From: Harmothoe impar
Taxonomy: Eukaryota; Annelida; Polychaeta; Phyllodocida; Polynoidae
NCBI GenBank assembly: GCA_947462335.1
Contig: OX381721.1
Coordinates: 41,566,488-41,630,487 of the forward strand
Direction of reading: 5' to 3'
DNA: 64,000 nt
The position numbers were made by a program, and so were the translations under genes. The notes beneath the pieces were generated by a model that made no database searches, had not been told where the DNA came from, and worked only from the letters and a program-made list of their open reading frames with translations. This document shows positions 6,315-52,429 of the stretch, piece after piece (positions within the stretch are counted from its first letter, which is position 1; each line of letters opens with the position of its first letter).

Positions 6315-8950
6315 TTTTTTTTGGTGTTTTTGGTTTAAACAAATTTATTCATTTTCATAATATTCAATAAATTTGTCAGTTATTACATGTGTATCCTTTT
6401 GGCGTCTCCAGGGGTTTATAAATATAAATATAATTCATGTAAATAAATATATATTAAGCAAGCATAATCATTTTCTATATTATTACTAATATTTGTATGG
6501 GGAACAATGTCCGAGCTCAGTGAATGCGTCATCTGAGCATGACCAAGTGGAAGACTGCCTGGACTTACAGGACAGCCTGCATAACACACCCAGCCCATTA
6601 TTCCAGGTCACTCAGCCCGGTATATAGGGTTGTATAGCTACAGCACTGTGTTCTTTACCATAGCTTTTATATAATCATATTTGCGATTTTTATATGATAT
6701 TTGCGAAAAATATAGCCCCCTTTAGCATATAGATCAACTAATTACCTACCAACTTATATATGCATTTAGTGCATAGTCCGTTGCATTTATGAGTAATTAC
6801 AAGTTTAAATCTGTACTTTGTCTGGTTTGGGGCACATAGAGCACTGTATCTGCTTGGAGAAGGTGTGAAAGCCTGAAGCCCCACCTGCTACACCAGGCTC
6901 CCAGCCTGTCTTACCAGCCTGCTGTGCTGGGAGAGTGTATAGGGGCGACCTGAAAGCACAGGCTGGGCGGCCTGAAAGTACAGGCTGCCTGTTTATGCAG
7001 GCCGTCCTGTTCTGCCATTCTAGTCCTCCACCTGATGACCTGCCTCTGCCTAAGGCAAGGTCTATCTGTGTTCCCGATGACATGCTTAGAGTTGATGATA
7101 ACATTAGATGTGTGACGGATGTATGAATTTATGAGTGATGGTATGAATGCAATATGAGTGTTTTTGGCCTTCTGACTCTTCAGTGCAACGACTTACCAGG
7201 AGAGAACCACAACAATTGATTTAGAAATTTATCCTGCCTTATTTCAGCGGTCTATTCCAGACCACGACAGGGGGGGGGGGGGGGTCAAGTGGGGTCTTTT
7301 TGTATAAGGTCTTGAAGGCAGAGACTGACTCTGCTTTTTGGACCTGTGGCTTTATTCTGTTCCACAGTTTAATACCTCGGGCGTGTGGGCCTTTCTTGTA
7401 TTTCTGAAGTATAGCCCTTCTTGAAGGAAATTTGACCTTTAGGTCCCCCCTGGTTCTAGGGTTAGCCCTCGCTTCAAGACCTAGCTTCCTGGATTATTTG
7501 AACATAATGACAGCCAGCTGGTATTCTCCACGCTTATCTAGCATTTCCATGCCACATTCAAATGAAGAGTATCAGTTCGATGCTCAATATTAAACTTTCT
7601 TGTGCAAACTCTTAGTGCCCTGTTTTGTAGAGTCTGCAGTTTCTTTACCCTGCGTTTGCGTTCTATAAGAAAGCTACAATAGTCGAAATGGGGGAGGATT
7701 GTTTGCTTGTAAACAAGCACAGCTGTATCCTGATCCATCTGGGTATTTAACCAATTTAATTTAAAGATTTTCTGCCTAGATTTTGACTCTGTGGCTTTTA
7801 ACTGGGACTCCAGTTTTAACTCACTATCCAGTATTACTCCTAGATACTTGTATTCCCCAGGGCTTTCAAGTGGGGTTCCATTTATCAAAATATCAAGGTT
7901 TTGGCCCTGTTCTACTTTGTTTTTGGAACCGTAACATACTGCTTGTGTCTTTTTTGCATTTATACTAAGGCCGTTAGACGTGCACCAGTTACCAATTTAT
8001 TTAGATCTAACTGTAACAGTTCACAAGCTGTGTCCACTGATTTGTGACTGACGGTCAAGACTATGTCATCTGCATATAATAGCATTTTTTAATGTGTCAG
8101 GGTCTCAGTGACTCCATTTACAAGCAAAATAAACAAGAGGGGTTCTAGTATGGACCCCTGTGGTACCCCGAGCAGGATGTTTCTGGTTGCAGTCTTAGTG
8201 TTGTTAAGCAGCACAGACTGTTTTCTATTCTGGAGATAGCTGGCTATCCATATTAGGATGATCCCATTTATCCCAAATTTTGCTAACTTTTCTATTAATA
8301 GAGAATGATGTATACTATCGAAAGCCTTACTAAAGTCTACGTAGCAGGCACAGGTAGCTTCTGACTTGTCTCTACTTTCATACAGTCTTTCAGCAAGTAG
8401 CTTCACTGCTTCAGCAGTGCCCTTGCCTTTGACAAAACCATACTGTTCCGGGGCGATAAGGCCTAGGTCTTTAGCTTTTTCAGATACAAATGAGTGCACT
8501 ATCTTTTCTATCATTTTGCCTGGAGTTGGGAGTAAACTAACTGGTCTCCAATTAGCAACTTGTGTCAAGGCACCTGACTTTGGGATTGGGACTACTGTGG
8601 CCCTCGTCCAGGATTCAGGGAATATGCCTTGAGCCAAACTGTTATTAAACATGTCACATAGGTGGGGTACCAGCACAGTGAACGCGTCTTTGAGGACCCT
8701 AGCTGATATGCCATCAAGCCCTGAGGATTTGTTAGGATTTATTTTGTCTATCAATTGTTTCATGTCTTCATAATCAACTTCAGGTACATCCTGAGCCGTG
8801 ATGTCTACTCCGTCAGTGACAACCAGCTTCTCCAGATGTTCCTCTGGCCTCGAGTTTGAGTCCGGGAGGCTTGTCTTTTGGCTGGAGTTTCTTGTACAGT
8901 TTCTCACCAATTGTAGCAAAATAATCATTACAGTTATCACTGGCGTCGGT
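6315..8950 (-). mobile_element. LINE-containing insertion, 5' truncated
   Basis: This block interrupts one 63-bp array unit: the left flank ends at TTTGAGGC and the right flank resumes with TAAGGGCAAG. On the minus strand it carries reverse-transcriptase coding sequence and ends at 6315 in a short T run on the plus strand, as expected for the A-rich 3' tail of a minus-strand LINE. The part from 6315 to about 7220 has no coding sequence and would be a long 3' untranslated region or a nested older insertion. No endonuclease domain is present, so the copy is 5' truncated. Confidence 0.6.
7220..8940 (-). pseudogene. Non-LTR retrotransposon reverse transcriptase, broken
   Basis: Reading from 8940 downward, the frame encodes a LINE reverse transcriptase with the expected blocks in order: SSGLDGISARVLKDAF, WRPVSLLPTPGKMIEKIV, the catalytic YVDFSKAFDSI, GVPQGSI, then YADD at 8076-8065. 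A TAA stop interrupts the frame at about 8089, just before the YADD block, and a one-base shift near 8000 moves the thumb/C-terminal region (NGTPLESPGEYKYLGVILDS, 7538-7888) into another frame. More C-terminal sequence continues to about 7260 with another stop. The style resembles the Jockey/CR1/L2 group; the exact clade is undecided. It is inactive as it stands. Confidence 0.85.
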
Positions 8951-37836: not shown

Positions 37837-37840
37837 ATAG
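37837..37840 (+). repeat. Left target-site duplication ATAG
   Basis: ATAG immediately precedes the 5' LTR and is repeated at 52179-52182 after the 3' LTR, as expected from integrase action. Confidence 0.8.
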
Positions 37841-38177
37841 TGTCAGGTATGACCGGCGAGCCCGGCGAGCCCGGCGCTGCGGGCGCCCGCGTGTTCAAGC
37901 CGACGGCGGGAGACGCTACTCCCGCCGCCGGCACACGCAGGCGCGCGCCGGCCCGCATAGGCGGCGCTCCAGTCGGCACTCCCGCCGCCGCCAGGCGACG
38001 CTCATCCCGCACATTGTTTCCCACAGACCAGCATAAGGGTCACCCCTTTGATGTACACTAACAGGGGTAGACAAACTATGGAGGGGTATTGTGTGACTGT
38101 CTCTCTGACTGTTACAACCCTCCAACCACTGTCAACTGACACTAACACTCAAGATGCCATGCTGGTGGCCTGGCCCC

Positions 38178-38186
38178 CTTAAATAG
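38178..38186 (+). promoter_or_regulatory. TATA-like box of the LTR promoter
   Basis: CTTAAATAG in the LTR, about 270 nt before AATAAA, at the correct relative position for the U3 promoter. The same copy is at 51808-51816 in the 3' LTR. Confidence 0.55.
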
Positions 38187-38450
38187 GGTCAGGTCCCAGC
38201 ACTGGGCATCTCCATCCTCACTCTACACTTGGACACCACAGAGCAAGGACCTCTCCACTGACTGAGAACAAGGCTATAGGCTATGCCCTACTAGGCCCAA
38301 CTATCAGACATGGTGTAGGACCCCCTTGGCTCTAGTCCAGTACTAACCTCAGGGTTATTAGGTATATTACCAAGACCTATATTATTGTGTGGATAGGTGT
38401 AACTGAGTGGAACCTACATTGTACTTACTGTACTGTTGCTGTCAACTTGT

Positions 38451-38456
38451 AATAAA
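38451..38456 (+). terminator. LTR polyadenylation signal
   Basis: AATAAA in the LTR; the functional copy for the genomic RNA is the equivalent 52081-52086 in the 3' LTR. Confidence 0.7.
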
Positions 38457-38542
38457 TACCAACTATACTACAAGACCACAAGACTTAGTCAACTTACCTC
38501 ATATCATATTAAAGGGATCTCCCAACTAAGGGGATTCCTTGT

Positions 38543-38740
38543 ATGACAAAGTGGTGGAGAAGTCCTAACAAGATCCCACAAGCTGGCAGCACAGACTACC
38601 AAGACTCACCTCCGCAGCAAAGGACCAGCTACCCCTGGATCTCTACCCAGCAGGAGGAGGAGACCCAGCTCCAAGGAGTCATCCAGGAGCTCCACTCCAA
38701 CACCCTCAGCTTCACCACACCACACCACTCAAGAGAGTGA
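38543..38740 (+). other. Leader open reading frame (65 codons)
   Basis: An ATG in the last bases of the 5' LTR opens a 65-codon frame that ends about 100 nt before the gag start. It precedes gag on the genomic RNA and would be kept in an env mRNA using the donor at 38840. It has no domain. It could dampen gag translation or be fortuitous. Confidence 0.3.
38552..38569 (+). other. Primer-binding site
   Basis: TGGTGGAGAAGTCCTAAC begins three nt after the 5' LTR. The leading TGG fits pairing with a tRNA 3' CCA end. I did not identify which tRNA. Confidence 0.5.
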
Positions 38741-38840
38741 CTTCCAAGGCAAGCTTCACCTGGACACCCTAGCTGCCCTGGACAGTATCCAGGACACACA
38801 GAGTGACTTGTTCTCAAACGGTCAGCATACCCCAGGATCA

Positions 38841-38846
38841 GGTATG
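38841..38846 (+). promoter_or_regulatory. Candidate splice donor overlapping the gag start codon
   Basis: ATCAG followed by GTATGAGTG is a near-consensus donor in which the gag ATG (38844) is part of the intron's first bases. Splicing to the acceptor at 46519 would remove the gag start and deliver the env ATG two bases later, an economical switch between gag-pol and env mRNA. Confidence 0.5.
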
Positions 38847-40628
38847 AGTGACGATGAGACAGTACCCCCAGGCCAGGCAGCCAAAGAGGAGGCTGAGGCA
38901 CTTCTACTCATAGCCCAGAATGTAGAAACTCATGTGGATAAGACACTTAGGCCTGAACTAACAGCCCTACACACCACACATGAGGAAAGCACCAGCCGAG
39001 CCTTAAGGAAGGCCAAAGAGGAACAAGAGAAGGAATTAATATTACTCAGACAAGCCAACCAGGCACTGAAGAACTCTATGGAGACCCAAAAAGCTGAAGC
39101 CGCTCAAGCACTACTTGATATGCAAGCTCATCTACAAGTGACAATGAAAAACCAGCTAGCTGAGGCCCTAGCCTCACTCAAGTCAGGTGCACCCAATACC
39201 CAAGGAGTGAACCTGACTAACACTGACACCTCCTCAGCACTCCTAGATGCCTTGAAAGAGGAAAGAGTTGCAAGGGAGGCATCTTTCAGTGGGTTAAGGG
39301 ACCAGCTGAAACGGGACAAAGAGGAAAAATACTGTGATATTCTACAGCCAGAAAAATTTTCACAGTCCTCTCTCACACAATCCGCCAGGAGGCACTGCAC
39401 AGACTATGAACAATACTTTGATTCCAGATATGGGTACCATCCCAGTAACAGAATCAAGTATTTCTCAAACTACCTAGATGGTAAGGCAAAAATTTGGTAC
39501 AAAGCCTATAGGACAGCCCATCCAACAGCAGACTATGAAGAAATGAAGGCAGCTTTCCTGAAATACTTCAAGAAGGAGGACGACAGATTTGATGCTAAGG
39601 CATTGAGGAAGCAAAACCCAAAAGAATCTGTATCAGACTATGCCATGGCCTTACAAAAGATGGCCACAGCTCACAACAAGTCTGAGGAGAGAACAAGGGA
39701 AGCCCTGCTACATGGTCTAAGGGACGACATCAGTGCAGTAGTCATCCACAGGGAAGCAACTACATGGGATAAAATACTTGAAGTTGCAGAGGAGTATGAG
39801 AACCAACAAACAGTCTCCACTGGTAACATTAAAGATGAGATAAAAGCAGAATTAGGCTCAGAGCTACAGGAAACAATAGAATCCATGCAGGCACAACTGA
39901 AGTCTGTGACACATGTAAACTCTATGATTGTGAAGCAAACAAAGTCACAGAAAAATGGAAACCCCTCAAAGAAAGCCAAATCAGACCCAAAGACAGTTCA
40001 AATGGATCACTCATCAGAGGATGAAGACCAAAGCCTAAACCTCATGTCAAATGAACATGTGAGGAGGCAAGAACAAAGGGCACTGAAGGATCAAGGTAAA
40101 CCCAACAACAGCCAACAAAGGAACTCTGGAAATAACAGAGGAGGCTACCGAGGCAAAAACTTTGACCCAAACTTCAGAAATAGCAACAGAGGAGGACAAC
40201 GAGGCAGAGGTGGATACAGCCAAAATAACAGCCGAGATCACCAAAGCAACAGTCAGGACACCAGCCGTAGAGATAACAGCAGAAGTCGTGACAACAGCAG
40301 ACACCGTGATAGTAGCAGAAATCGCGACTACAATCGCCGTGATAACAGCAGAGACCGTGATTACCACCGTCGTGACCAGAGCAGAGATCGTGACTACAAC
40401 AGAGGTCGGGATCAAAACCGTCGTGACTACAGCAATAGTCGTGACAGACAGCATGACTACAACCGCAGTCGTGACAACAGCAGAGGTCGAGACAGCTACA
40501 ATGGCTACAGATCCAACACACAAGGCTACAACCCCCAACAGCAGCCCCAACAGCCACCTCAAGCTATCCAGCCTGACGTGCTTCAACAGATCAAGCAGCT
40601 ACTAGGATCTTCAAACTCGGGAAACTAG
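38844..40628 (+). CDS. gag: Gag structural polyprotein
   Basis: The first ATG of the frame is at 38844, giving 594 aa. An N-terminal acidic/coiled-coil region (KEEQEKELILLRQANQALKN) precedes the retrotransposon capsid-type domain at about residues 165-330, with the typical KIWYKAYRTAHP block and alternating helices. The C-terminal third is extremely rich in Arg, Asp, Ser and Asn, built from RDNSR/RDYNRR repeats with RGG motifs, then a Gln/Pro tail. No CCHC zinc knuckle is present, so nucleic-acid binding is probably carried by the Arg repeats. It ends at TAG directly after a frameshift heptamer. Confidence 0.92.
   Translation: MSDDETVPPGQAAKEEAEALLLIAQNVETHVDKTLRPELTALHTTHEESTSRALRKAKEEQEKELILLRQANQALKNSMETQKAEAAQALLDMQAHLQVTMKNQLAEALASLKSGAPNTQGVNLTNTDTSSALLDALKEERVAREASFSGLRDQLKRDKEEKYCDILQPEKFSQSSLTQSARRHCTDYEQYFDSRYGYHPSNRIKYFSNYLDGKAKIWYKAYRTAHPTADYEEMKAAFLKYFKKEDDRFDAKALRKQNPKESVSDYAMALQKMATAHNKSEERTREALLHGLRDDISAVVIHREATTWDKILEVAEEYENQQTVSTGNIKDEIKAELGSELQETIESMQAQLKSVTHVNSMIVKQTKSQKNGNPSKKAKSDPKTVQMDHSSEDEDQSLNLMSNEHVRRQEQRALKDQGKPNNSQQRNSGNNRGGYRGKNFDPNFRNSNRGGQRGRGGYSQNNSRDHQSNSQDTSRRDNSRSRDNSRHRDSSRNRDYNRRDNSRDRDYHRRDQSRDRDYNRGRDQNRRDYSNSRDRQHDYNRSRDNSRGRDSYNGYRSNTQGYNPQQQPQQPPQAIQPDVLQQIKQLLGSSNSGN
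40200..40510 (+). repeat. Tandem RD/SR-coding repeats in gag
   Basis: Degenerate units coding R-D-(N/Y)-(S/N)-R repeat across this stretch, from codons such as CGTGAC and AACAGC. Open frames in the other five frames here are shadows of the repeat. Confidence 0.8.
40619..40625 (+). promoter_or_regulatory. -1 ribosomal frameshift heptamer GGGAAAC
   Basis: In gag frame it reads G GGA AAC and is followed at once by the TAG stop (40626-40628). Pol is open in the -1 frame from 40577. GGGAAAC is an X XXY YYZ heptamer known from retroviral gag-pro junctions. A possible hairpin starts seven nt downstream, pairing 40633-40639 (with one bulged A) with 40643-40648. Confidence 0.85.
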
Positions 40629-43600
40629 AGACCCACAGCGCCGCTGGGCCAGTGCGTTGTGAGCCTCTCCAACCCCCCATCAAGATCCAAGATCAACAAT
40701 CCCTAGGACAACCAAAGACAATTGCTAGTATAGCAGAGACAATCCCCCAGATGCACACTGGGAAATCAAGCCGACCATCAGTGATTCACATCACACCTCA
40801 ACAAGATGCATCGCAAAAGGAAATGGGTGAGAGTACCAAAATTTCTGTTGAACTTCTTAAAAATGGCTGTTTAAATGCAAGATTCTATGAACACACTGAA
40901 ATACCTTGTTTAGTTGACACCGGTGCCACTATCACCTGTGTCAGGGATACTTTTCTTAGGGAAATTCAGAAATCTCGAGATGTAGAAATCAAAAAGAGAA
41001 AGTTCAATGTACACTTAGCAGACGGATCCATATGCCATGTAAGACAAGCAGCAGTATTGAAATTCAAAATTCATGGTACCAGATTCGAATTCCCATTCTC
41101 AATTATTCCAAATCTCACAAAGCCAGTTGTCCTAGGCACAGATTTCTTAAAAGCAACACGATCACAGATCGAATTCAATGTAGACCCAGAGCTACAAGTC
41201 AAGCCAGTCCGAGCTGTTAGGGAGGCTACAATCCTTCCTTTCACAGAACTAGCAATTCTAGGACAAGTCACATCCCTCAAATGTTTAGAAGGATGTGTAG
41301 GCACATTAGACAATTTGCAGAGGAACAACAGAGTTCCATACCTAGTTCAAAAGGGAGTAGTAACACCCTCAGAAATGAACAGGCACCCAATCATACTGCT
41401 CAATACAAGCCACCGACCATACAAGGTGAGGAAGGGTGATATAATAGCCCTATTCACAGAGGTAGATCCCTCTGAGTTACATCAACCAGATACTGACATC
41501 CCTACTGAGGAACCCACACTACAAGTGCTAGACACTGAAGAGAATTGTAGTGACACAGAGTCAGACTGTGCCTCAGTATATGCAGATCCAGATACAAACC
41601 GTGGAGATGACACTGATGATGAATTGGCCACAATTCACAGTGAGGCTCATGACATTATGCCAGACATAATGGAAAATGTGCCACCCAAATGTGTACTAAC
41701 AGATATTGGACAAGAGAGACTCCAAAAGTTACTCCACAAGTATCAAGATGTATTTGTAGGAAAAGACAATGACATAGGTACAACCCACCTATATACACAT
41801 TCAATTCACATCAAACCAGATGCAGTACCATGTCACTACCTACCATACAGGCAGACGCCTGAGAAGCAAGCTAAGATGGGAGAAGTCTGTGAAGACCTAG
41901 TCAGACAGGGCATCCTCAGAGAATGTGCAGAGGGACCCTGGGCATCCAGATCATTTTTAGTACAGAAAGCATCTGGAGGCCAACGTCTAGTCACAGACCT
42001 ACGCCACGTCAATGCTAATATGATAAACCAAGCTTTATCAACGCCACGTGCAGACGACACACTAGACATGATAGGGTCACTCAAACCTACTGTTTTCAGT
42101 AAACTAGATGCGCAACAAGGGTTTTTCCAAATTCCCATAAGAAGGGAGGATCAACACAAAACTGCTTTCATAGCAAATGACAAAAAGTATGTCTATCAAA
42201 AGATGCCGATGGGTTTGGCTACCGCGCCGGCAGGATTTTGCCATCTAGTAACTCTAATTCTCAACAAACTGAAATACAAATGTGCCCTACCATACCTAGA
42301 CGACATTCTAGTCCTATCACCAGATGTAGAACGACATTTTTCAGACCTTGAAGATGTCTTCAAAAGCCTGAGAATTGGGAAACTCAAGCTAAAGAAATCA
42401 AAATGTGAATACTTCACAGATAGGATAGATTTTCTAGGAATGCGTGTCACACCTGATGGTTTACAACCATCCCCAGAAAAGGTGGAAAGTGTCAAAACTT
42501 TTCCCACCCCAAAATCCGTGAAACAAGTCAGATCATTCACAGGACTATGCCAATACTTCAAAAAGTTCATCAAAGACTATGCCAATATTGCTAGGCCACT
42601 GTACGACCTACAAACAAACCTAAAGGTTTTCAAATGGAATGAGGACGCAGACAATGCTTTCAAAACATTGAAACATGCACTCTGTACCCATGCACTATTG
42701 AGATACCCAGACTATGACAAAGAATTCAGTCTAGCAACAGATGCTTCAAATGTGAGCCTAGGAGCTGTTCTATCACAACGCAGTAGTGAAGGAGTACTGA
42801 GACCAGTAGCCTTCGCAGGTAGAACACTATCCAAGCATGAAAGAAACTACAACACAACAGAAAGAGAGCTACTAGGTGTAGTATATGGGATACTACATTT
42901 TAGGCACTACTTAGAAAGTAGACACTTTCAGTTGTACACAGATCATGCAGCTCTAATACCACTCCTCACAAACACAGGTTTGACCCACAGGTGGGCCAGA
43001 TGGGCACTGGATATCCAACAATTTGCATTCACAATACAACACGTAAAAGGAGATGACAACATTCCTCCAGATGTGATGTCAAGAAGAGAATATCCAGATG
43101 CACCACCAATGACCAACCCCCCACCACCTCCAAGAAGGAAAAGGGCAGCCACCAGAACCAAATTCTCTAAAATCCAAACCAAGATACCATTCAACAGAGA
43201 TGACCCACCAAAAGCAATTGACAGACCAAAACCAGTGATCAGAGGTATCTTAAAAGAGACCACCCATTATGTGTTCTGTCATTGTGAAAGGGAATACTGT
43301 GAAGAGTATCCAGAAAACTGTTTTACCCCGGTTGAGACCAACAGGATTGCACAGATGGTGAAAACCACACCTCGTGAACCACCACACAGTGCATCAGAAA
43401 ATCAGTTGGAAGAAAAACTGCATAAAATTGCTTCAATCACCAAGGTAGTCAGATTTGCAAAAGAACAGCTGGATATGGAGGAAGAACAGGACAGAGACAT
43501 TTGTGTTGTCACCACACGTTCAAAAGCAAAACGGTCGGTTGCAGAGGATACAAGGTCTAATGACCACCCTCAGCAATTAGGCCTAAAAGCCAAAAAGAAC

Positions 43601-45430
43601 AAAGTGTCAACCAAATCCTCTTCCCCTACTAAATCCCCCATTTCAACACCCAGCACACCCACAGCCAATTTGCAGAAGCACTCAGACAGAGCAGGTACTG
43701 CACAGAAGGCTCACAAAAGCAAATCTGACCCCCATCCCAAAAGAACAAAGGCCGCCTCCACCAGCACAAACAGAGGAGCAGCCAGTTCAAAGGAGCAGAC
43801 AGTCAACACAGACATAGCAGTTGAACAACCAAAGAAACAGACAAAGACCAGACCTGCACCAAAATCTCCTGAAACAATCCAGGCAGAGAAAGACAAAGAA
43901 AGGCTGGCACAGCATATAATGGAATTAGACCAGATGTTAGACCAAATCCCAGACAGTTCAATCAACTCCACACTGTTGAAAGAAGAACAAAGGAAGGACA
44001 CTGGACTAATACCCATTATAGACTACCTAGAGAAAGGTGACCTACCTGTAAAAAGCACTGAAGCAACAAGGATTAGGAATAATGCTCAGCATTACCTACT
44101 CCTAGACAACATTCTAGTACACATATCCCCTACATCATGGAGAAAAACAGACACAGTACCACTACAAGTTGTAGTCCCAAAAACTTGGGTTGAAAACATA
44201 CTGCAACACTTCCATGACTCACCAATGGCAGGCCATGTAGGTACTTCAAAAATGATGTCTTCTCTCATACCCAGGGTATATTGGAAATCTATGATGGCTG
44301 ATGTCAATCAGTATGTGTCAACATGTGACACTTGCCTAAAAGCAAAAAGGGCAGTGCACACCCACAAAACACCAATGACTGTAAGGGACTATATGCCAAC
44401 TCCCATGAAGCACCTTAACTTAGATGCTGTGGGACCACTCCCAGAAACAGCCAGGAAAAACAAACACATACAAGTTTGCATAGATTATTCAACTAGATAT
44501 GTCATAGCATATGCCACAAAGGATCTCACAGCAGAAACCACACAACATGAGTTCTACAAGAACGTCATATGTCAGCAAGGTGTACCAACTTCAGTTCAAA
44601 CTGACAATGGCACCTGCTACACAGGCAGCAATTTTAAGAAACTGATGAACACCCAGAAGATAAGACACGACCTGTCAAGTCCATATAGACCACAATCAAA
44701 TGGATTAGTGGAAAGATTCAATGCCAGTATAGGAACAGCATTAAGGACTTTCTGTTCTCAGAATCAGAAAACATGGGACCTGTATATAGAATCAATTACA
44801 TTTGCATTGAACAACACAGAGTCCCAGACAACAGGTTACACACCATTCTTCCTACTGCATGGCAGAAACCCTCAAACCATTGTAGAAACTGCCCTAAACA
44901 TAGAGGAAGAAATCAAAACAGTAGCAGAGCATGTATCTGGAATGATACTGTCTCAAGATGAGTCTAGAAGAAAGGCAATAGACAGAGTCAAAAAGCTACA
45001 ACAAGGAAGGAAGTCAAGATATGACAAAAAGCTTACACCACAAGCTATACTTCCACTAGATATTGTATATATCAACATTCCCAGAATTCTGTTGACCACA
45101 GATTCAAAGAAGCTTCAACCCCTATTCATGGGACCATATGTTGTTGCAGAAAGACCAACCCCAACCAGCGCAAGGTTGAAGAACCTATCAAATAACCTAC
45201 TAGTCCCCAGACCAGTACATATTGATAGGCTCAAAAAGGTCACAACACTGAGGAAAAATGAGTTTGCACACAGACTCATTCCCCACACCTCAAAGTTTAT
45301 CCACAGGATAACAAGGGATAAATCCCAAATCACACTCACCAAAGAGTCAGTTGGTCTAAACCAAATAGTACCCAGACCAGCCCACCACAAGGTGAAAAGA
45401 AACTCCAGGCAAGGGAGAATATCTAAGTAA
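40625..45430 (+). CDS. pol: Pol polyprotein: protease, RT, RNase H, integrase
   Basis: Expressed as a Gag-Pol fusion by -1 frameshift; the frame has no ATG at its start. Numbering from 40652: aspartic protease with CLVDTGATITC (Asp 89); reverse transcriptase with LPYLDDILVLS (YLDD 548-551); RNase H with LATDAS (Asp 697) and YTDHAAL. A linker of roughly 285 residues rich in Pro, Lys, Ser and Thr follows. Then come the integrase HHCC finger (from His 1186), catalytic Asp 1258, Asp 1318 and Glu 1354 (35 residues between the last two) and a GPY/F-like motif (MGPYVV). No chromodomain. The frame is uninterrupted and every catalytic residue I checked is present. The linker between RNase H and integrase is unusually long. 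Confidence 0.95.
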   Translation, partial: LETHSAAGPVRCEPLQPPIKIQDQQSLGQPKTIASIAETIPQMHTGKSSRPSVIHITPQQDASQKEMGESTKISVELLKNGCLNARFYEHTEIPCLVDTGATITCVRDTFLREIQKSRDVEIKKRKFNVHLADGSICHVRQAAVLKFKIHGTRFEFPFSIIPNLTKPVVLGTDFLKATRSQIEFNVDPELQVKPVRAVREATILPFTELAILGQVTSLKCLEGCVGTLDNLQRNNRVPYLVQKGVVTPSEMNRHPIILLNTSHRPYKVRKGDIIALFTEVDPSELHQPDTDIPTEEPTLQVLDTEENCSDTESDCASVYADPDTNRGDDTDDELATIHSEAHDIMPDIMENVPPKCVLTDIGQERLQKLLHKYQDVFVGKDNDIGTTHLYTHSIHIKPDAVPCHYLPYRQTPEKQAKMGEVCEDLVRQGILRECAEGPWASRSFLVQKASGGQRLVTDLRHVNANMINQALSTPRADDTLDMIGSLKPTVFSKLDAQQGFFQIPIRREDQHKTAFIANDKKYVYQKMPMGLATAPAGFCHLVTLILNKLKYKCALPYLDDILVLSPDVERHFSDLEDVFKSLRIGKLKLKKSKCEYFTDRIDFLGMRVTPDGLQPSPEKVESVKTFPTPKSVKQVRSFTGLCQYFKKFIKDYANIARPLYDLQTNLKVFKWNEDADNAFKTLKHALCTHALLRYPDYDKEFSLATDASNVSLGAVLSQRSSEGVLRPVAFAGRTLSKHERNYNTTERELLGVVYGILHFRHYLESRHFQLYTDHAALIPLLTNTGLTHRWARWALDIQQFAFTIQHVKGDDNIPPDVMSRREYPDAPPMTNPPPPPRRKRAATRTKFSKIQTKIPFNRDDPPKAIDRPKPVIRGILKETTHYVFCHCEREYCEEYPENCFTPVETNRIAQMVKTTPREPPHSASENQLEEKLHKIASITKVVRFAKEQLDMEEEQDRDICVVTTRSKAKRSVAEDTRSNDHPQQLGLKAKKNKVSTKSSSPTKSPISTPSTPTANLQKHSDRAGTAQKAHKSKSDPHPKRTKAASTSTNRGAASSKEQTVNTDIAVEQPKKQTKTRPAPKSPETIQAEKDKERLAQHIMELDQMLDQIPDSSINSTLLKEEQRKDTGLIPIIDYLEKGDLPVKSTEATRIRNNAQHYLLLDNILVHISPTSWRKTDTVPLQVVVPKTWVENILQHFHDSPMAGHVGTSKMMSSLIPRVYWKSMMADVNQYVSTCDTCLKAKRAVHTHKTPMTVRDYMPTPMKHLNLDAVGPLPETARKNKHIQVCIDYSTRYVIAYATKDLTAETTQHEFYKNVICQQGVPTSVQTDNGTCYTGSNFKKLMNTQKIRHDLSSPYRPQSNGLVERFNASIGTALRTFCSQNQKTWDLYIESITFALNNTESQTTGYTPFFLLHGRNPQTIVETALNIEEEIKTVAEHVSGMILSQDESRRKAIDRVKKLQQGRKSRYDKKLTPQAILPLDIVYINIPRILLTTDSKKLQPLFMGPYVVAERPTPTSARLKNLSNNLLVPRPVHIDRLKKVTTLRKNEFAHRLIPHTSKFIHRITRDKSQITLTKESVGLNQIVPRPAHHKVKRNSRQGRISK

Positions 45431-46521
45431 ATTACTTTTATATATTGACATGATCATATGGAATATCTATACCCACAGACTATGAATAATAGTCAAATAA
45501 GTATATACACTCTATATGAAGGAAATTAAATTTCCAACAACTGTCCAAATCAAGAATGATAAGTAGGAATTTTCATATCAGCATAGGATATGAACCCACA
45601 CAAAGGACAGAAAAGACAATATACACTATATAGGTTACAAAACAATGTGCACACAAAGTATAATCAAAGGACAGATTACTACAGGGTTGAAGTCTGAAAC
45701 CCAAAAGGCTACACACAAAAAGCCAAAGAGACTACCTAAAGGGATTAGCAACCCAAGCTTGAAGAAACCACAATTATCATACTTTTGCATCAAAGGCTAG
45801 CATCCTTGAAAGAATGCAACAATGGAAATGTTTGAACCTAAATCCTGTAAAGTACATGAAACAGAGCGTGCTATGCCAAGAGACTACTGTCTAGACACAC
45901 CCTTACCCTTCAAAGGACCCACACACCTGCCAGGGCATTCAAACCCCCACAGATGCAGGTAGTCCACACTAATTACCCCAGACATAATTACCCCAGTCAG
46001 ACAAGCTAACTCTGATGGCAGTTAACAGCCACCAGGGAAACAAAGCCAGGCCCTCAATGGATGAGGGTAGGGTGGGCTACATAAGAGGCCCTGACTCCAT
46101 AGCCAACTCACCAGTTCTACTCCTGCAGCAGTCAGGTACACACCAGCTGGTCCTAGCCATACCAGTTCTCCTATAGCAGGAGGGACTCTGTCAGAAAGCA
46201 GACCACACCCACTCTACAATATCATACCCAGTTACTACAATCTTGGGAAAGGACTCTAGCACAGATTGGACATTAAGCCAACACTAGCTTGATCATGGAA
46301 AAAGGTACAGTTCAAACACTACATTGATTATTATATTACTATTGGGACCAACCAGGATTTCTGCTCTCAAAACTATGTACACAGAGGCAGCGCCAAGTGG
46401 ATACTTCACATAAGCAAAAAGGATAGCTCACAAAATCAGCAAACCAATTTAAACCTAAGTATATTGCAAAAACACTAGTAGAAGTCTTACTAAGACATAG
46501 AATATATTTTATATTTCAGGC
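45431..46521 (+). other. 1.1-kb non-coding spacer between pol and env
   Basis: No substantial open frame. It contains a TATA-like ACATAAGAGG near 46079-46088, an initiator-like CTCACCAGT near 46106, a donor-like GTCAG/GTACAC at 46135/46136 and the acceptor TATTTCAG at 46519. This layout would suit a separate short-leader env transcript, but could be coincidental. Confidence 0.5.
46512..46519 (+). promoter_or_regulatory. Candidate splice acceptor of env mRNA
   Basis: TATATTTCAG followed by GC and the env ATG: a good 3' splice site ending two bases before the start codon, implying env is translated from a spliced message. Confidence 0.6.
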
Positions 46522-49140
46522 ATGCTAAAGCCAATCCTACTACTAGTGATGATGGCCACTTCTCAAGCCATCACATATGTGCCCACCGTTAGACAGAACG
46601 TTGGAGCCATATATGAGCCATTACCTGAACCATTGGTCAATGGGCACGATACCACAACCATGATATTGGCAATACCATACCATATACCTGCTCCACCAGA
46701 GACCGAAACCAAAATACTGGACCAGGTTATGGCACTAACATTTCCTACCTTGCATGACGACAGTTCTACCAGTCAGATATTACAGCAGGCAAGGGAACTA
46801 GATCTGTTAATAGACATAACAGACAAGGAAATTAACTCTACCTTAGCATCCATCCATTTGTTCCTATCAAATCCAATTAACAGTCAAGGAAGGTACAGAA
46901 GAGCACCACTTGGGTTCCTAGCCCCACTCTTCAGAGGAGCAATAGGTCTTGCCACACTAGATGACGTCAAAGAGGTCATGGACCAGATAAAGAACATAGA
47001 CGGCATTCTAGAAGCTTTTTCCAAGCAAGACAAAGAAGCAGCTATATTAATTGATAAGGTCACCCAACGCCAAGACAAATTTGTCAAGGCATATGTTAAG
47101 GATAAAAGTATGCTAGACCAAACCATGAACACTCTAGGCCAAAATATGAATTTATGGGCTCAAAATATGACCACATCTCTGAACACTTATGCAAATCACG
47201 AGCACACACAAAGAAGGAAGATCCAAATTTTAACTGATGCACTCACCATTATTGTAGCAAGAATGAACTATCTGCAAGCATTGCAGCGCACCACATCAGC
47301 ACTCAGGATGCTATCAGCAGGCATTATGACTGCTGACATAGTACCACCAGCTGAACTAACGGAGCATCTGAATGATCTGGACATGACACTCAGAATACAC
47401 TCACCAGGATCAAAGGTCGCCATAACTGACCTTGACTACTATTATTCCCAAAGAATGATATCCTACACCTATTCGGAACGGCACATATACATCCACCTGG
47501 ATATCATTGTAGCATCCACTGTCTCCACCTTCAGAGTATTTCAACTGGTAACTACACCAGTACCAATCAACACCAAGGAGACACCTACAAAGGGAGTAAC
47601 CCAATTAATTACTGATGTCAAATTTTTGGCTATCTCTGAAGATGGTTCACTATTTATTGAACTAACAAATGCAGATATGCTAACCTGTCCAGGAACTAAG
47701 ATCAAAATTTGTACCAAAACTAGCCCGAGAATCCATAGACATGTACCCACATGCACAGTAGCAATTTATTTGAACCAAGCTCAGCAAGTCAAGGAAATGT
47801 GCCAATTTACTATCTCACCCTTGAAGAGACCTATCTCACACGCTGTAGCCATTTCACAAGATGAATATCTAGTGACCACAAATTCTCCCACCTACACAGT
47901 TACGTGTCATGGGAAACCAGCTACTACTCACAAAGCACCATCACACTCAATCATAGGTGTACCATGCCTATGTACAGTGAATATAGATCACTATTCACTA
48001 CCAAATTCTAGGTTGCCATGCAACACTACAATCTCATTTCACTATGCTTTGGAGACTATAAACCTACCTTTTCTCGCGGCTCTAAATGAAATCAAAGAAA
48101 TTGGACCAGACTCCAAGGCAAATCTGCCACCTTTTCCAAAGGTCAACCTATCCAGGACACTGGATATGTTAAGAAAATCAAGTAATATTGATGAATCAAC
48201 ATTACTAGACCTAAACCCATTCGCAAAAACCCTGCTAGATGATGCCTCCAGCCTGGCTAAGCCACTGGAAAATAGACTAATAGAGTCCTATCTATACAAA
48301 TTTGCACGGCATCCAGCAGCATCTATCATACCAATGATACTTTCGGTTATAGCTACAATTTTGGCCACCTACACCCTATTCAAAATGCACAGAGGATCCA
48401 CACTACTAGCTTATATGCCAACTGCAAAAGCATATAGATTTGTCACAGAGAAGCCTATGGAGAAAGTCTTCGAAACCCTATACAAGAAGGACACCACCAC
48501 GGCACAAATAGAACAGGGCCCCACCCCTATTCTAACTATCCATGAGACCCATACCCTTATCATAGCCATACTATTCACACTCACCATTTACTCAGCCTAC
48601 AGGCTGACCAAATATCTAAAGAGTATGGCAACCAAGCACTGTGGAAAGGGAAAAGTCACTAAGAGGACAAATCCCACAGTAGTACTAAAAGTCTACAAAG
48701 GAGACACCAACTTCTCCTTCCCCTTGCGTCCAGTGCCACATGAGTTTGACACAATTATAAAAGCTTCAGCCCCAACATACAGAGATATGATTATCAAAAT
48801 GTACCCTCTCCCAAAACTAGTATTTGAATGGAATGGACCAGTAGTAATTACTACAAAGAAAGGAGAGACCGCATATTTACTGCCAGAAACTATCAATCTA
48901 CCATGGCGTGCCAGGTTCAGCATAATACCAGCGCTCAGGGAACCCAATCTAGATTTTGCCATGTTACTACAAAATGACATTTCACCCCAGCCCGTTACCA
49001 TGGATACCCATGAGTCAAAGCTGGAAAACATCATAATTGACGACCAAAGAGAGAGCACCAATACATTCAAAAATGTACTCACCATACTCACCCAACCACC
49101 TACAGCTGTAACTAGTGAGAAAGTACATGGGGAAGAATAA
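46522..49140 (+). CDS. env: Envelope fusion glycoprotein, F-protein type
   Basis: 872 aa. A signal peptide (about residues 1-16, hydrophobic LLLVMM) is followed by an ectodomain with several N-glycosylation sequons. A furin-like RYRR (124-127) stands directly before a hydrophobic, Gly/Ala-rich fusion-peptide-like segment (about 128-145). Next come amphipathic helices suited to a coiled coil, a Cys-rich region at about 395-520 and a transmembrane segment at about 598-620. This order matches baculovirus F and errantivirus Env proteins, which drive membrane fusion. Unusually, a second hydrophobic segment (about 678-695) and a further tail of about 175 residues follow the main anchor, whereas typical F proteins end in a short cytoplasmic tail. 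The frame is intact. Confidence 0.85.
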   Translation: MLKPILLLVMMATSQAITYVPTVRQNVGAIYEPLPEPLVNGHDTTTMILAIPYHIPAPPETETKILDQVMALTFPTLHDDSSTSQILQQARELDLLIDITDKEINSTLASIHLFLSNPINSQGRYRRAPLGFLAPLFRGAIGLATLDDVKEVMDQIKNIDGILEAFSKQDKEAAILIDKVTQRQDKFVKAYVKDKSMLDQTMNTLGQNMNLWAQNMTTSLNTYANHEHTQRRKIQILTDALTIIVARMNYLQALQRTTSALRMLSAGIMTADIVPPAELTEHLNDLDMTLRIHSPGSKVAITDLDYYYSQRMISYTYSERHIYIHLDIIVASTVSTFRVFQLVTTPVPINTKETPTKGVTQLITDVKFLAISEDGSLFIELTNADMLTCPGTKIKICTKTSPRIHRHVPTCTVAIYLNQAQQVKEMCQFTISPLKRPISHAVAISQDEYLVTTNSPTYTVTCHGKPATTHKAPSHSIIGVPCLCTVNIDHYSLPNSRLPCNTTISFHYALETINLPFLAALNEIKEIGPDSKANLPPFPKVNLSRTLDMLRKSSNIDESTLLDLNPFAKTLLDDASSLAKPLENRLIESYLYKFARHPAASIIPMILSVIATILATYTLFKMHRGSTLLAYMPTAKAYRFVTEKPMEKVFETLYKKDTTTAQIEQGPTPILTIHETHTLIIAILFTLTIYSAYRLTKYLKSMATKHCGKGKVTKRTNPTVVLKVYKGDTNFSFPLRPVPHEFDTIIKASAPTYRDMIIKMYPLPKLVFEWNGPVVITTKKGETAYLLPETINLPWRARFSIIPALREPNLDFAMLLQNDISPQPVTMDTHESKLENIIIDDQRESTNTFKNVLTILTQPPTAVTSEKVHGEE

Positions 49141-49236
49141 CACAATTATACAGGAGTGAGATTGACCAAAACTTTTGTGAAAAGTTGGTTGGCCCTGAAA
49201 AGGACCGTTTATATTGACATTTATAGATGCCACCCA

Positions 49237-49845
49237 CTAGTTGTTATAGTCCCCCCATCCCAAGGCCTCCCAGGACTCGGCCAACTCGGCAGCGGCAGGA
49301 GATCCAATCCACGTATCTTCACTGAAGAGCCACTCGTTCTCCTCCCTCCACTGGACAAAACGTGCCTCCAAAGTAGACAAAGCATGCTCAGCGCTGTCTG
49401 CAGCATCACCTGTCACCGTGTAAGCACATAGGCCGACAGCCAATAGGAAGTCCCAGATGACCCCATCATTTCTGGTGAAAAGCAGTCGCGGGTCATATCC
49501 ATCCAGATCACGTAGGGCCTGAGCCAACAGCTCCAGAGATGCCGCCCTGCGCATGGAAATCCCGCCAGCACCAAGGAAGTACCAGCCGTGATGACGGCAC
49601 ACCAAAACATCACCAAAACTGGCAATGTCGTGCCGGACTTTATGCAACCATCGCGTCCTTACTGAGTCATACCGACTCAAAATACTCCTAAAAGGAGTAC
49701 CAGGAGTCAGCCCCTCCAAGGTGTTTTGATCACCTAACCACAGGTCTAAGGCCTGCATGTCACCCTGCAGCCAGGCCTCAGGGAGATATGCAAGTACCTC
49801 AGGTACAGCCTCCAACTCGTCCTCCAAAATTGCCATATGCGCCAT
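49237..49845 (-). CDS. Antisense accessory protein, family unknown
   Basis: A 202-codon frame on the strand opposite to gag-pol-env, between env and the 3' LTR, converging on the env stop with a 96-nt gap. The predicted protein is acidic overall and rich in Leu, Ala and Trp, with stretches such as LLAQALRDLDGYDPRLLFTR and WREENEWLFSEDTWIG. It has no signal peptide, membrane segment or motif I recognise. Its base composition is clearly GC-richer than the neighbouring AT-rich non-coding DNA and env, which suggests selection or capture from elsewhere. A TATA-like element lies about 60 nt upstream of its ATG. It could be a captured host gene or a regulator; no function is assigned. Confidence 0.65.
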   Translation of the reverse strand: MAHMAILEDELEAVPEVLAYLPEAWLQGDMQALDLWLGDQNTLEGLTPGTPFRSILSRYDSVRTRWLHKVRHDIASFGDVLVCRHHGWYFLGAGGISMRRAASLELLAQALRDLDGYDPRLLFTRNDGVIWDFLLAVGLCAYTVTGDAADSAEHALSTLEARFVQWREENEWLFSEDTWIGSPAAAELAESWEALGWGDYNN

Positions 49846-49903
49846 ACTGTGTTATCTCAAGGGTACTCAAGGAATAAGTGATCCTACTGTGGTCTACACA
49901 GCC

Positions 49904-49910
49904 ATTATAA
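49904..49910 (-). promoter_or_regulatory. TATA-like box for the antisense frame
   Basis: On the minus strand GGTTATAATGG lies so that transcription starting about 30 nt downstream would give a leader of some 30 nt before the ATG at 49845. Suggestive only. Confidence 0.35.
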
Positions 49911-51456
49911 CCCCTCCCCACCCCCAAATGACACTGTTCACCCTCTGAAGTGATCCCCTCACTTCAGGTGACAACTCCATGAGAAGGCACATGATCTGCT
50001 CACCAAAAGGTGTCAACCACCGGTGTCACCGCGGCACACGACGCATCTTGCGTCGCATGACACAATAGCCTCAAGGTGCCACTCAAAAATCTGCTCAAGG
50101 TGCAAAATTTTCAAACTCTCACAATCCCAAGGTCAAAGCAAGGTCTCAGTGTGTGTCAGTAGTATCAGGAAATCAATTTTAAGGTATCCCAAAATGAAAC
50201 AGCCAATTTTTGAAAAATTGAAGTTTTACAAAAACAATTGCGTACTCTTAACCATGTCATACTTGCTCAAACATGCATTTATATGTATGAAATTGTATTA
50301 TTACAATCTAAATTGCTAATCAAACATGTTTGTATATAACACTGTATTTACACTGTATTTTACACTGTATACCTTTGTATTATGTAAGACTATTTACAGA
50401 AAAACATGAAGCAAAAAGGGAGATAGTCCGCTGACTAACCCTAGGATACTACACAAAAGACTTAAATCTCACAGCAGCGGCCCACTGCAAAGACATTTCT
50501 GATCAAAGTGTAGATCCACAAGTTGCAAATTGCCAACACCAAGAATCTTGTAAGATTCAACTATCATTGCAGAAACAAGATACCAAGTCATTTTTATGAC
50601 ATTATGAACACTTACCCTCCACCGGATAAGGACAAAATATCTGCATAAAAAGGACTGTATTTGTACATACAAACTTACAAACTTAAGTAATGCAAAATGT
50701 CAGATGACACAATTATGAACACTTATCCGCCACCGGACAAGCACATAACTATGCATAAAATGTACATTACTGATGGCTATATCACGCAAATCCAAAGATA
50801 AGCGCTATCTAGAAATAAGAAAACAAACTTCAAGCCGGTTGGCCTACTTTTATATAAAAGTGGCCTTGGTTTTTTTGGTATCAAACAAAAAAGTTTGTAA
50901 AAGATTATCATAAGATTTTGCATAATTTGCATTATACTCTGTATATTTGTATTCACATGTGAACATTGATATATCAAAATCCACTCAGTTCCACAAAGCA
51001 CCTATTTCACCAAAGACAGCCTATTACTTGATAACACATTTTTCATCATGTTTTAGAATTAAGACAAAGATGTACCATGCTGTGTATATAATTCAAACAA
51101 TGATTTGAAAAGTGTCAGATAAAGACACAATGTATTACTACACTGTAGAATATGTGATTAAGAAAGTACCAAATTGGTACAAAGAAGGTTTACATACCTT
51201 ATAGTTAAGTTACACTGTATATAATGTAGATGACTAGCCAAGCACAAAACCAAAATTCTCCCCAGACCTTTGGTATTTACATACTCTCACATCATCTATA
51301 TTACAAAAAAAAGTGTACTTCACTACAAAAAAAAAAAAAAAAAATCAAAAACAAAAGGTAAATTCTATTTGCCACCAAAAATTGTGGATAAAATTCCAAA
51401 ATTCACCCCAAATTTTTAGATGGAATGACAACTGACGGAGAGTTGTCCTTTTTCCC
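49911..51456. other. AT-rich non-coding region before the 3' LTR
   Basis: About 1.5 kb with no long frame. A diverged local repeat occurs at about 50598-50655 and 50707-50765 (ATTATGAACACTTA then CCACCGGA). An A homopolymer of about 19 occurs at 51326-51344. Confidence 0.6.
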
Positions 51457-51466
51457 GAGGGGGAGG
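51457..51466 (+). other. Polypurine tract
   Basis: GAGGGGGAGG four nt before the 3' LTR, the expected primer position for plus-strand DNA synthesis. Confidence 0.65.
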
Positions 51467-51470
51467 CACC

Positions 51471-52178
51471 TGTCAGGTATGACCGGCGAGCCCGGCGAGC
51501 CCGGCGCTGCGGGCGCCCGCGTGTTCAAGCCGACGGCGGGAGACGCTACTCCCGCCGCCGGCACACGCAGGCGCGCGCCGGCCCGCATAGGCGGCGCTCC
51601 AGTCGGCACTCCCGCCGCCGCCAGGCGACGCTCATCCCGCACATTGTTTCCCACAGACCAGCATAAGGGTCACCCCTTTGATGTACACTAACAGGGGTAG
51701 ACAAACTATGGAGGGGTATTGTGTGACTGTCTCTCTGACTGTTACAACCCTCCAACCACTGTCAACTGACACTAACACTCAAGATGCCATGCTGGTGGCC
51801 TGGCCCCCTTAAATAGGGTCAGGTCCCAGCACTGGGCATCTCCATCCTCACTCTACACTTGGACACCACAGAGCAAGGACCTCTCCACTGACTGAGAACA
51901 AGGCTATAGGCTATGCCCTACTAGGCCCAACTATCAGACATGGTGTAGGACCCCCTTGGCTCTAGTCCAGTACTAACCTCAGGGTTATTAGGTATATTAC
52001 CAAGACCTATATTATTGTGTGGATAGGTGTAACTGAGTGGAACCTACATTGTACTTACTGTACTGTTGCTGTCAACTTGTAATAAATACCAACTATACTA
52101 CAAGACCACAAGACTTAGTCAACTTACCTCATATCATATTAAAGGGATCTCCCAACTAAGGGGATTCCTTGTATGACA
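51471..52178 (+). repeat. 3' LTR
   Basis: 708 bp, apparently identical to the 5' LTR by direct reading. Followed by ATAG at 52179-52182. Confidence 0.95.
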
Positions 52179-52429
52179 ATAGTCTGGCAGAACACCCACC
52201 CTATAGCCAGGAAACCTTGACCTCAGCCAGCTGTGCTGACCCTTCCTGGAGGTAGTGTAAACTGACCAGGTGTGGGTGAACCTGTTATTATTGTATTGGA
52301 TCCAGATGTTGGCCTAGAATCATGATATAGAGAGATCTATGTTCAGTAATATTTAGAGACTGGAGCAGGGAAATGAACAGCAAATGCTGATATTTACTGT
52401 AATACATTGCTCATCTATTTTTGTAATAC

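Follow-up and report, generated by a model that had tools for sequence, protein, structure and literature searches.

A probable antisense protein-coding gene between env and the 3' LTR of a Ty3/Gypsy provirus in Harmothoe impar

The window analysed here is a stretch of 64,000 nucleotides from the genome of the annelid Harmothoe impar. It contains a Ty3/Gypsy provirus that spans positions 37841 to 52178 and carries gag, pol and env on the plus strand and, on the minus strand, the frame that is the subject of this report (Table 1). The two LTRs, in which an earlier note on this DNA had seen no difference, are identical over 708 bases; each starts with TG and ends with CA, and ATAG flanks the element on both sides. 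The exact repeat is 709 bases long, and its final base is taken as flank. The start of the 3' LTR (51471-51640), like that of the 5' LTR, is very GC-rich and contains repeated GGCGAGCCC-type units; the stretch that precedes it is AT-rich. Both gag and pol are open frames. Seven of the nine Pfam families listed for pol exceed their own cut-offs, and the domains follow the order protease-RT-RNase H-integrase. Short imperfect tandem repeats at the 3' end of gag (40272-40482) encode Arg/Asp/Ser-rich repeats.

Table 1. Features of the provirus and of its antisense frame, in window coordinates
Feature	Position	Strand	Details	Basis
5' LTR	37841..38548	+	TG...CA; ATAG before, 37837-37840	Exact repeat; boundaries and duplication read by eye
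gag frame	38808..40628	+	606 aa from first listed start (TTG)	Pfam Retrotrans_gag E 1.8e-08, Ty3_capsid E 4.5e-07
pol frame	40652..45430	+	Protease, RT, RNase H, integrase; first listed start GTG	Pfam
env frame	46522..49140	+	872 aa; F-type (Baculo_F-related) via a relative	Relatives and Baculo_F scan
Two TATAAA hexamers	49208..49225	-	Possible variant poly(A) signals	Motif match without chance control
Antisense frame	49237..49845	-	202 aa, acidic	ORF list, shuffles, relatives, neutral simulation, run test
Promoter-like stretch	49902..49925	-	G-rich run, then TATA-like TTATAATGG	Motif match without chance control
3' LTR	51471..52178	+	ATAG after, 52179-52182	Exact repeat

The env frame of the window gives no Pfam match above cut-off, and its comparison with PDB sequences yields a weak match (E 0.013) to entries named fusion protein. 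Five relatives of its product were found: P0008 (88% identity), P0010 (58%), P0011 (37%), P0012 (35%) and P0009, which is 100% identical over 58% of the query. When four of these were scanned with Baculo_F, P0010 alone passed (25.6 against a cut-off of 24.1 bits); P0011 fell below it (19.4), and P0008 and P0012 gave no match. The provirus is called env-bearing, and the envelope F-type, because of the homology to P0010. The description of the element as an env-bearing Gypsy provirus, made originally from the letters of the DNA, is borne out by gag, pol and the LTRs, and for env it holds only by way of P0010. In 20 copies fetched from the same genome, env differs from that of the window by 27 distinct changes, 18 of them synonymous and 9 not, with 19 at third positions; this is the pattern expected for a gene under constraint.

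The antisense frame comprises 202 codons from its ATG, lies between env and the 3' LTR and overlaps neither the sense genes nor the LTR. The remaining five frames of the same stretch contain 5 to 15 stops apiece. Dinucleotide shuffles of the whole interval 49141-51440 gave no ATG frame of at least 202 codons on either strand in 1000 trials (mean 83, maximum 178). The same procedure applied to the GC-richer block consisting of the ORF and 50 bases on each side produced such a frame once in 1000 trials (mean 74, maximum 206). The GC content is 54% in the frame as against 35% in the adjoining noncoding stretch, 49846-51440. The earlier note had placed the frame exactly, opposite to gag-pol-env and between env and the 3' LTR, and had judged it too long for chance and GC-rich amid AT-rich DNA; all of this agrees with the counts given here.

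That the gene encodes a protein of some 200 residues, acidic and rich in Trp, is well supported. The product has a pI of 4.48 and a charge of about -18, with 32 acidic and 14 basic residues; it contains ten tryptophans and is mildly hydrophilic (GRAVY -0.11). It had previously been left outside any family, and there it stays: no match was obtained in Pfam at E up to 10, in NCBIfam or in PHROGs, and an alignment-profile search of PDB sequences was likewise empty at E up to 10. None of the seven proteins that make up the group (that of the window and the six relatives described below) has a precomputed Pfam domain, and one of four aligned members shows a DUF1285_N match at chance level (E 0.084). 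A search of viral contigs for relatives returned three pattern matches, none of which was confirmed. AlphaFold models of the protein are poor, with a mean pLDDT of 45.3 from four sequences and 36.7 from one; both models hint at best at a mostly helical protein in which the segment of residues 74-93 includes some strands.

Several more specific identities were considered for the protein and rejected or judged unlikely. A phage-derived gene found no support in tblastn against phage records (no match at E up to 0.1) or in PHROGs. The TRP28 protein of Retand was set aside on the lack of a match to Pfam PF04195 at E up to 10. The gene for HBZ is found near the 3' end of its retrovirus, and an HBZ-like bZIP protein was also considered; Pfam gives no bZIP match at E up to 10, and the acidic pI speaks against it as well.

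A search of 5.8 billion proteins returned the protein of the window itself and six others, P0002 to P0007. All six come from contigs that are 642 to 1346 bases long, and the absence of stops in them is partly built in because they are predicted proteins. P0002 has 202 residues and is 78% identical to the protein of the window, without gaps and with both ends alike. P0003 is 75% identical over 76% of the query; it shares with P0005 a C-terminus that is shorter than, and unlike, that of the window's protein. The longest contigs of P0004 and P0007 are equal in size, as are those of P0005 and P0006, and the members of each pair look like halves of broken copies.

The replacements in these relatives were compared with a neutral simulation that took the window's frame as the ancestor and used a single mutation setting; stops were disallowed, because the database contains predicted proteins only. 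The 45 replacements in P0002 have a mean BLOSUM62 score of 0.09, against -0.64 (sd 0.24) in the simulation, where one run in 2000 scored as high. Twenty of them have positive scores, where 11.6 would be expected (9 of 2000 simulations), and Trp, Gly, Pro, Cys and Phe are changed at 4 of 41 residues against 9.0 expected (as few in 55 of 2000). The replacements are also clumped between conserved blocks, to a degree equalled by 174 of 20000 shuffles; identical runs of 22, 19, 17 and 15 residues separate them, and the longest run is ordinary by itself (2423 of 20000). P0003 is clumped as well (267 of 20000), and 60 of 2000 simulations have as high a mean score; on the remaining two measures (279 and 808 of 2000) it is not conservative. 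No clumping is seen in P0004 (12608 of 20000), and its replacements are only mildly conservative: of 2000 simulations, 107 do as well on mean score, 37 on positive count and 190 on the third measure. Judged by these comparisons of predicted proteins, the conclusion that P0002 carries marks of purifying selection is well supported, and the antisense frame is very probably a coding gene. Conservation beyond one family is found at the protein level, in P0002 and P0003, both known as proteins on short contigs. The caution of the earlier note, that the youth of this copy alone may explain the intact frame, is answered in part by P0002, with its 78% identity, equal length and conservative replacements.

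Copies of the element in the same genome (1.51 Gb in 736 contigs) were sought as well, and 40 of 462 candidates were scored. The antisense frame is identical in all 40, the window's own included; these are the best 40 of the 462 ranked by identity to the frame, and the identity is no evidence of selection and carries almost no weight because the copies were chosen by that very property. The same bias attaches to the 20 copies that were fetched from among the 40, in each of which the frame is unchanged letter for letter. Leaving indels aside, each of these 20 has 1-11 mismatches to the window in 741 bases of env, 2-11 in 755 and 1-11 in 840 bases of noncoding sequence, and 0-8 in the 3' LTR, one LTR being only partly aligned. 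The copies sampled in this genome are young. Three of them (L020, L019 and L018, at G000:C11:41364961, 41378855 and 41393182) share one orientation and are spaced at 13.9 and 14.3 kb, about one provirus length. Leader sequence following the 3' LTR was not found in the 20 fetched stretches, which extend about 120 bases beyond the LTR; tandems that share LTRs are unlikely on the lack of a leader within that distance, and the cluster is possibly a segmental duplication or a clustered insertion.

The sequence on either side of the antisense frame contains candidate expression signals. Upstream, 59 bases lie between the TATAA of TTATAATGG and the antisense ATG, and the TATA-like site differs by one base, reading TTATAAAGG, in 11 of the 20 other copies. 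Downstream, the two TATAAA hexamers start 12 and 24 bases past the antisense stop. TATAAA can serve as a variant poly(A) signal. Together these motifs suggest a compact gene of its own. The antisense gene would be transcribed from a compact promoter immediately 5' of its ATG, and the transcript would stop short of the env stop, giving a short mRNA that covers no sense gene. Two perfect inverted repeats lie farther upstream of the gene, and 14 of 500 shuffles have as many. One of them, the palindrome CGACGCATCTTGCGTCG at 50039-50055, differs at 50053 in 15 of the 20 other copies and at 50041 in two. Because of the change at 50053, the repeats are not conserved as a pair, and on this ground an upstream operator pair was rejected.

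The insect errantiviruses (gypsy, ZAM and their kin) resemble the provirus of the window in their Ty3/Gypsy gag-pol, their env of the F type and their short target duplications. An antisense gene is not known to belong to their usual description. A search of the literature that covered titles and abstract openings, with subscription journals largely uncovered, gave, among the matches listed, no antisense protein gene in a Gypsy element of an animal. In plant Gypsy elements and in the fungal element Boty, antisense additional ORFs located between pol and the 3' LTR (aORF-3R) appear in the excerpted texts of PMC7264820 and PMC11963269; examples given there are gene23 of maize Grande, rice RIRE2, ORF4 of Silene Retand and bean PvRetro13. 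In maize Grande, according to the excerpt of PMC7264820, the region that precedes the antisense gene contains a promoter. As far as these excerpts go, the plant frames resemble that of the window in being antisense and in their position after the last sense gene and before the 3' LTR. The provirus of the window differs from them in having a Baculo_F-type env between pol and the frame, and its product is strongly acidic with no TRP28, SMC or other Pfam match. By anatomy, the plant antisense ORFs are the nearest precedent, one that the earlier note had not mentioned.

Among retroviruses, an antisense gene is described for HTLV-1, where HBZ, to which the APH proteins are related, is a bZIP protein with a promoter in the 3' LTR (excerpt of PMC10186651). 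In contrast, the product of the window's frame has no bZIP match and a pI of 4.5, and the promoter-like site adjoins the frame. HIV-1 ASP, which is likewise antisense, lies in the env region and has about 190 residues (same excerpt), overlaps env and is hydrophobic, whereas the frame of the window overlaps no sense gene and its product is mildly hydrophilic. The earlier note had read the frame as an accessory gene and had named HBZ only as an example. What stands of that reading is an extra, probably protein-coding antisense frame with relatives beyond the young family; a close likeness to HBZ is unsupported, the product being acidic and without a bZIP match.

Taken together, the observations make it reasonably probable that the frame is a real minus-strand accessory gene of an env-bearing Ty3/Gypsy provirus and serves the element. 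The GC contrast with the neighbouring DNA suggests that the gene was recruited from elsewhere. Its protein might, at a guess, work in trans by protein-protein contacts and not by DNA binding, and it might control the provirus or blunt silencing by the host. The fuller picture, in which an active env-bearing Gypsy retrovirus has a genuine minus-strand gene that is driven by its own promoter and encodes a new family of acidic proteins acting in trans for the virus, is put forward tentatively, as plausible and a little short of probable.

A host or viral gene that was captured, or nested, in the backward orientation would look similar; it could be open because it is young or useful elsewhere, and would have no role for the element. 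A foreign insert is consistent with the GC step at the ORF. In env and noncoding sequence the 20 copies depart from the window by no more than about 1.5% (indels apart), so that decay would be barely visible, and P0002 to P0007 come from contigs too short to place them inside proviruses. This account has nevertheless to accommodate a 78% relative with like ends, which implies a gene far older than the provirus family, as well as a protein that matches no known family and a set of seven proteins none of which is a recognisable host gene; we regard it as unlikely.

The antisense RNA might instead be the functional product and dampen or silence sense expression, the frame being incidental. The promoter-like site upstream of the frame would suit such an RNA, and noncoding antisense RNAs are known in retroelements, for instance in Drosophila micropia, according to the excerpt of PMC7264820. 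A noncoding RNA leaves unexplained the conservative, clumped replacements in P0002, and a short transcript would pair with sense RNA only within the env-LTR interval, because the frame overlaps neither env nor the LTR; this reading is improbable. Least credible is an open frame that arose by chance in a young family. The copies are little diverged from the window, which allows only a short time within the family, and one shuffle of the GC-rich block did reach the length of the frame. No shuffle of the whole env-LTR interval did so, and a relative of 202 residues at 78% identity has conservative, clumped replacements; both the shuffle counts and these replacements led us to consider chance very improbable.

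Antisense coding genes have been described in a few exogenous retroviruses, plant Gypsy elements and one fungal element. If the preferred reading of a minus-strand accessory gene is true, a conserved antisense gene in a young, multi-copy, env-bearing element would point to repeated origins of the arrangement, and the provirus would offer a system for asking what antisense proteins do. On the fuller picture given above, this antisense-coding accessory gene would be of independent origin from HBZ and ASP and would reside in an endogenous element.

Other long minus-strand frames occur in the window. The one at 40047-40586, opposite the 3' end of gag, is of low complexity and is probably a by-product. 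Opposite the end of env (48693-49145) there is a frame of 150 aa that starts with TTG. At 8089-8940, a frame of 283 aa resembles, as recognised by eye, the reverse transcriptase of a non-LTR retrotransposon.
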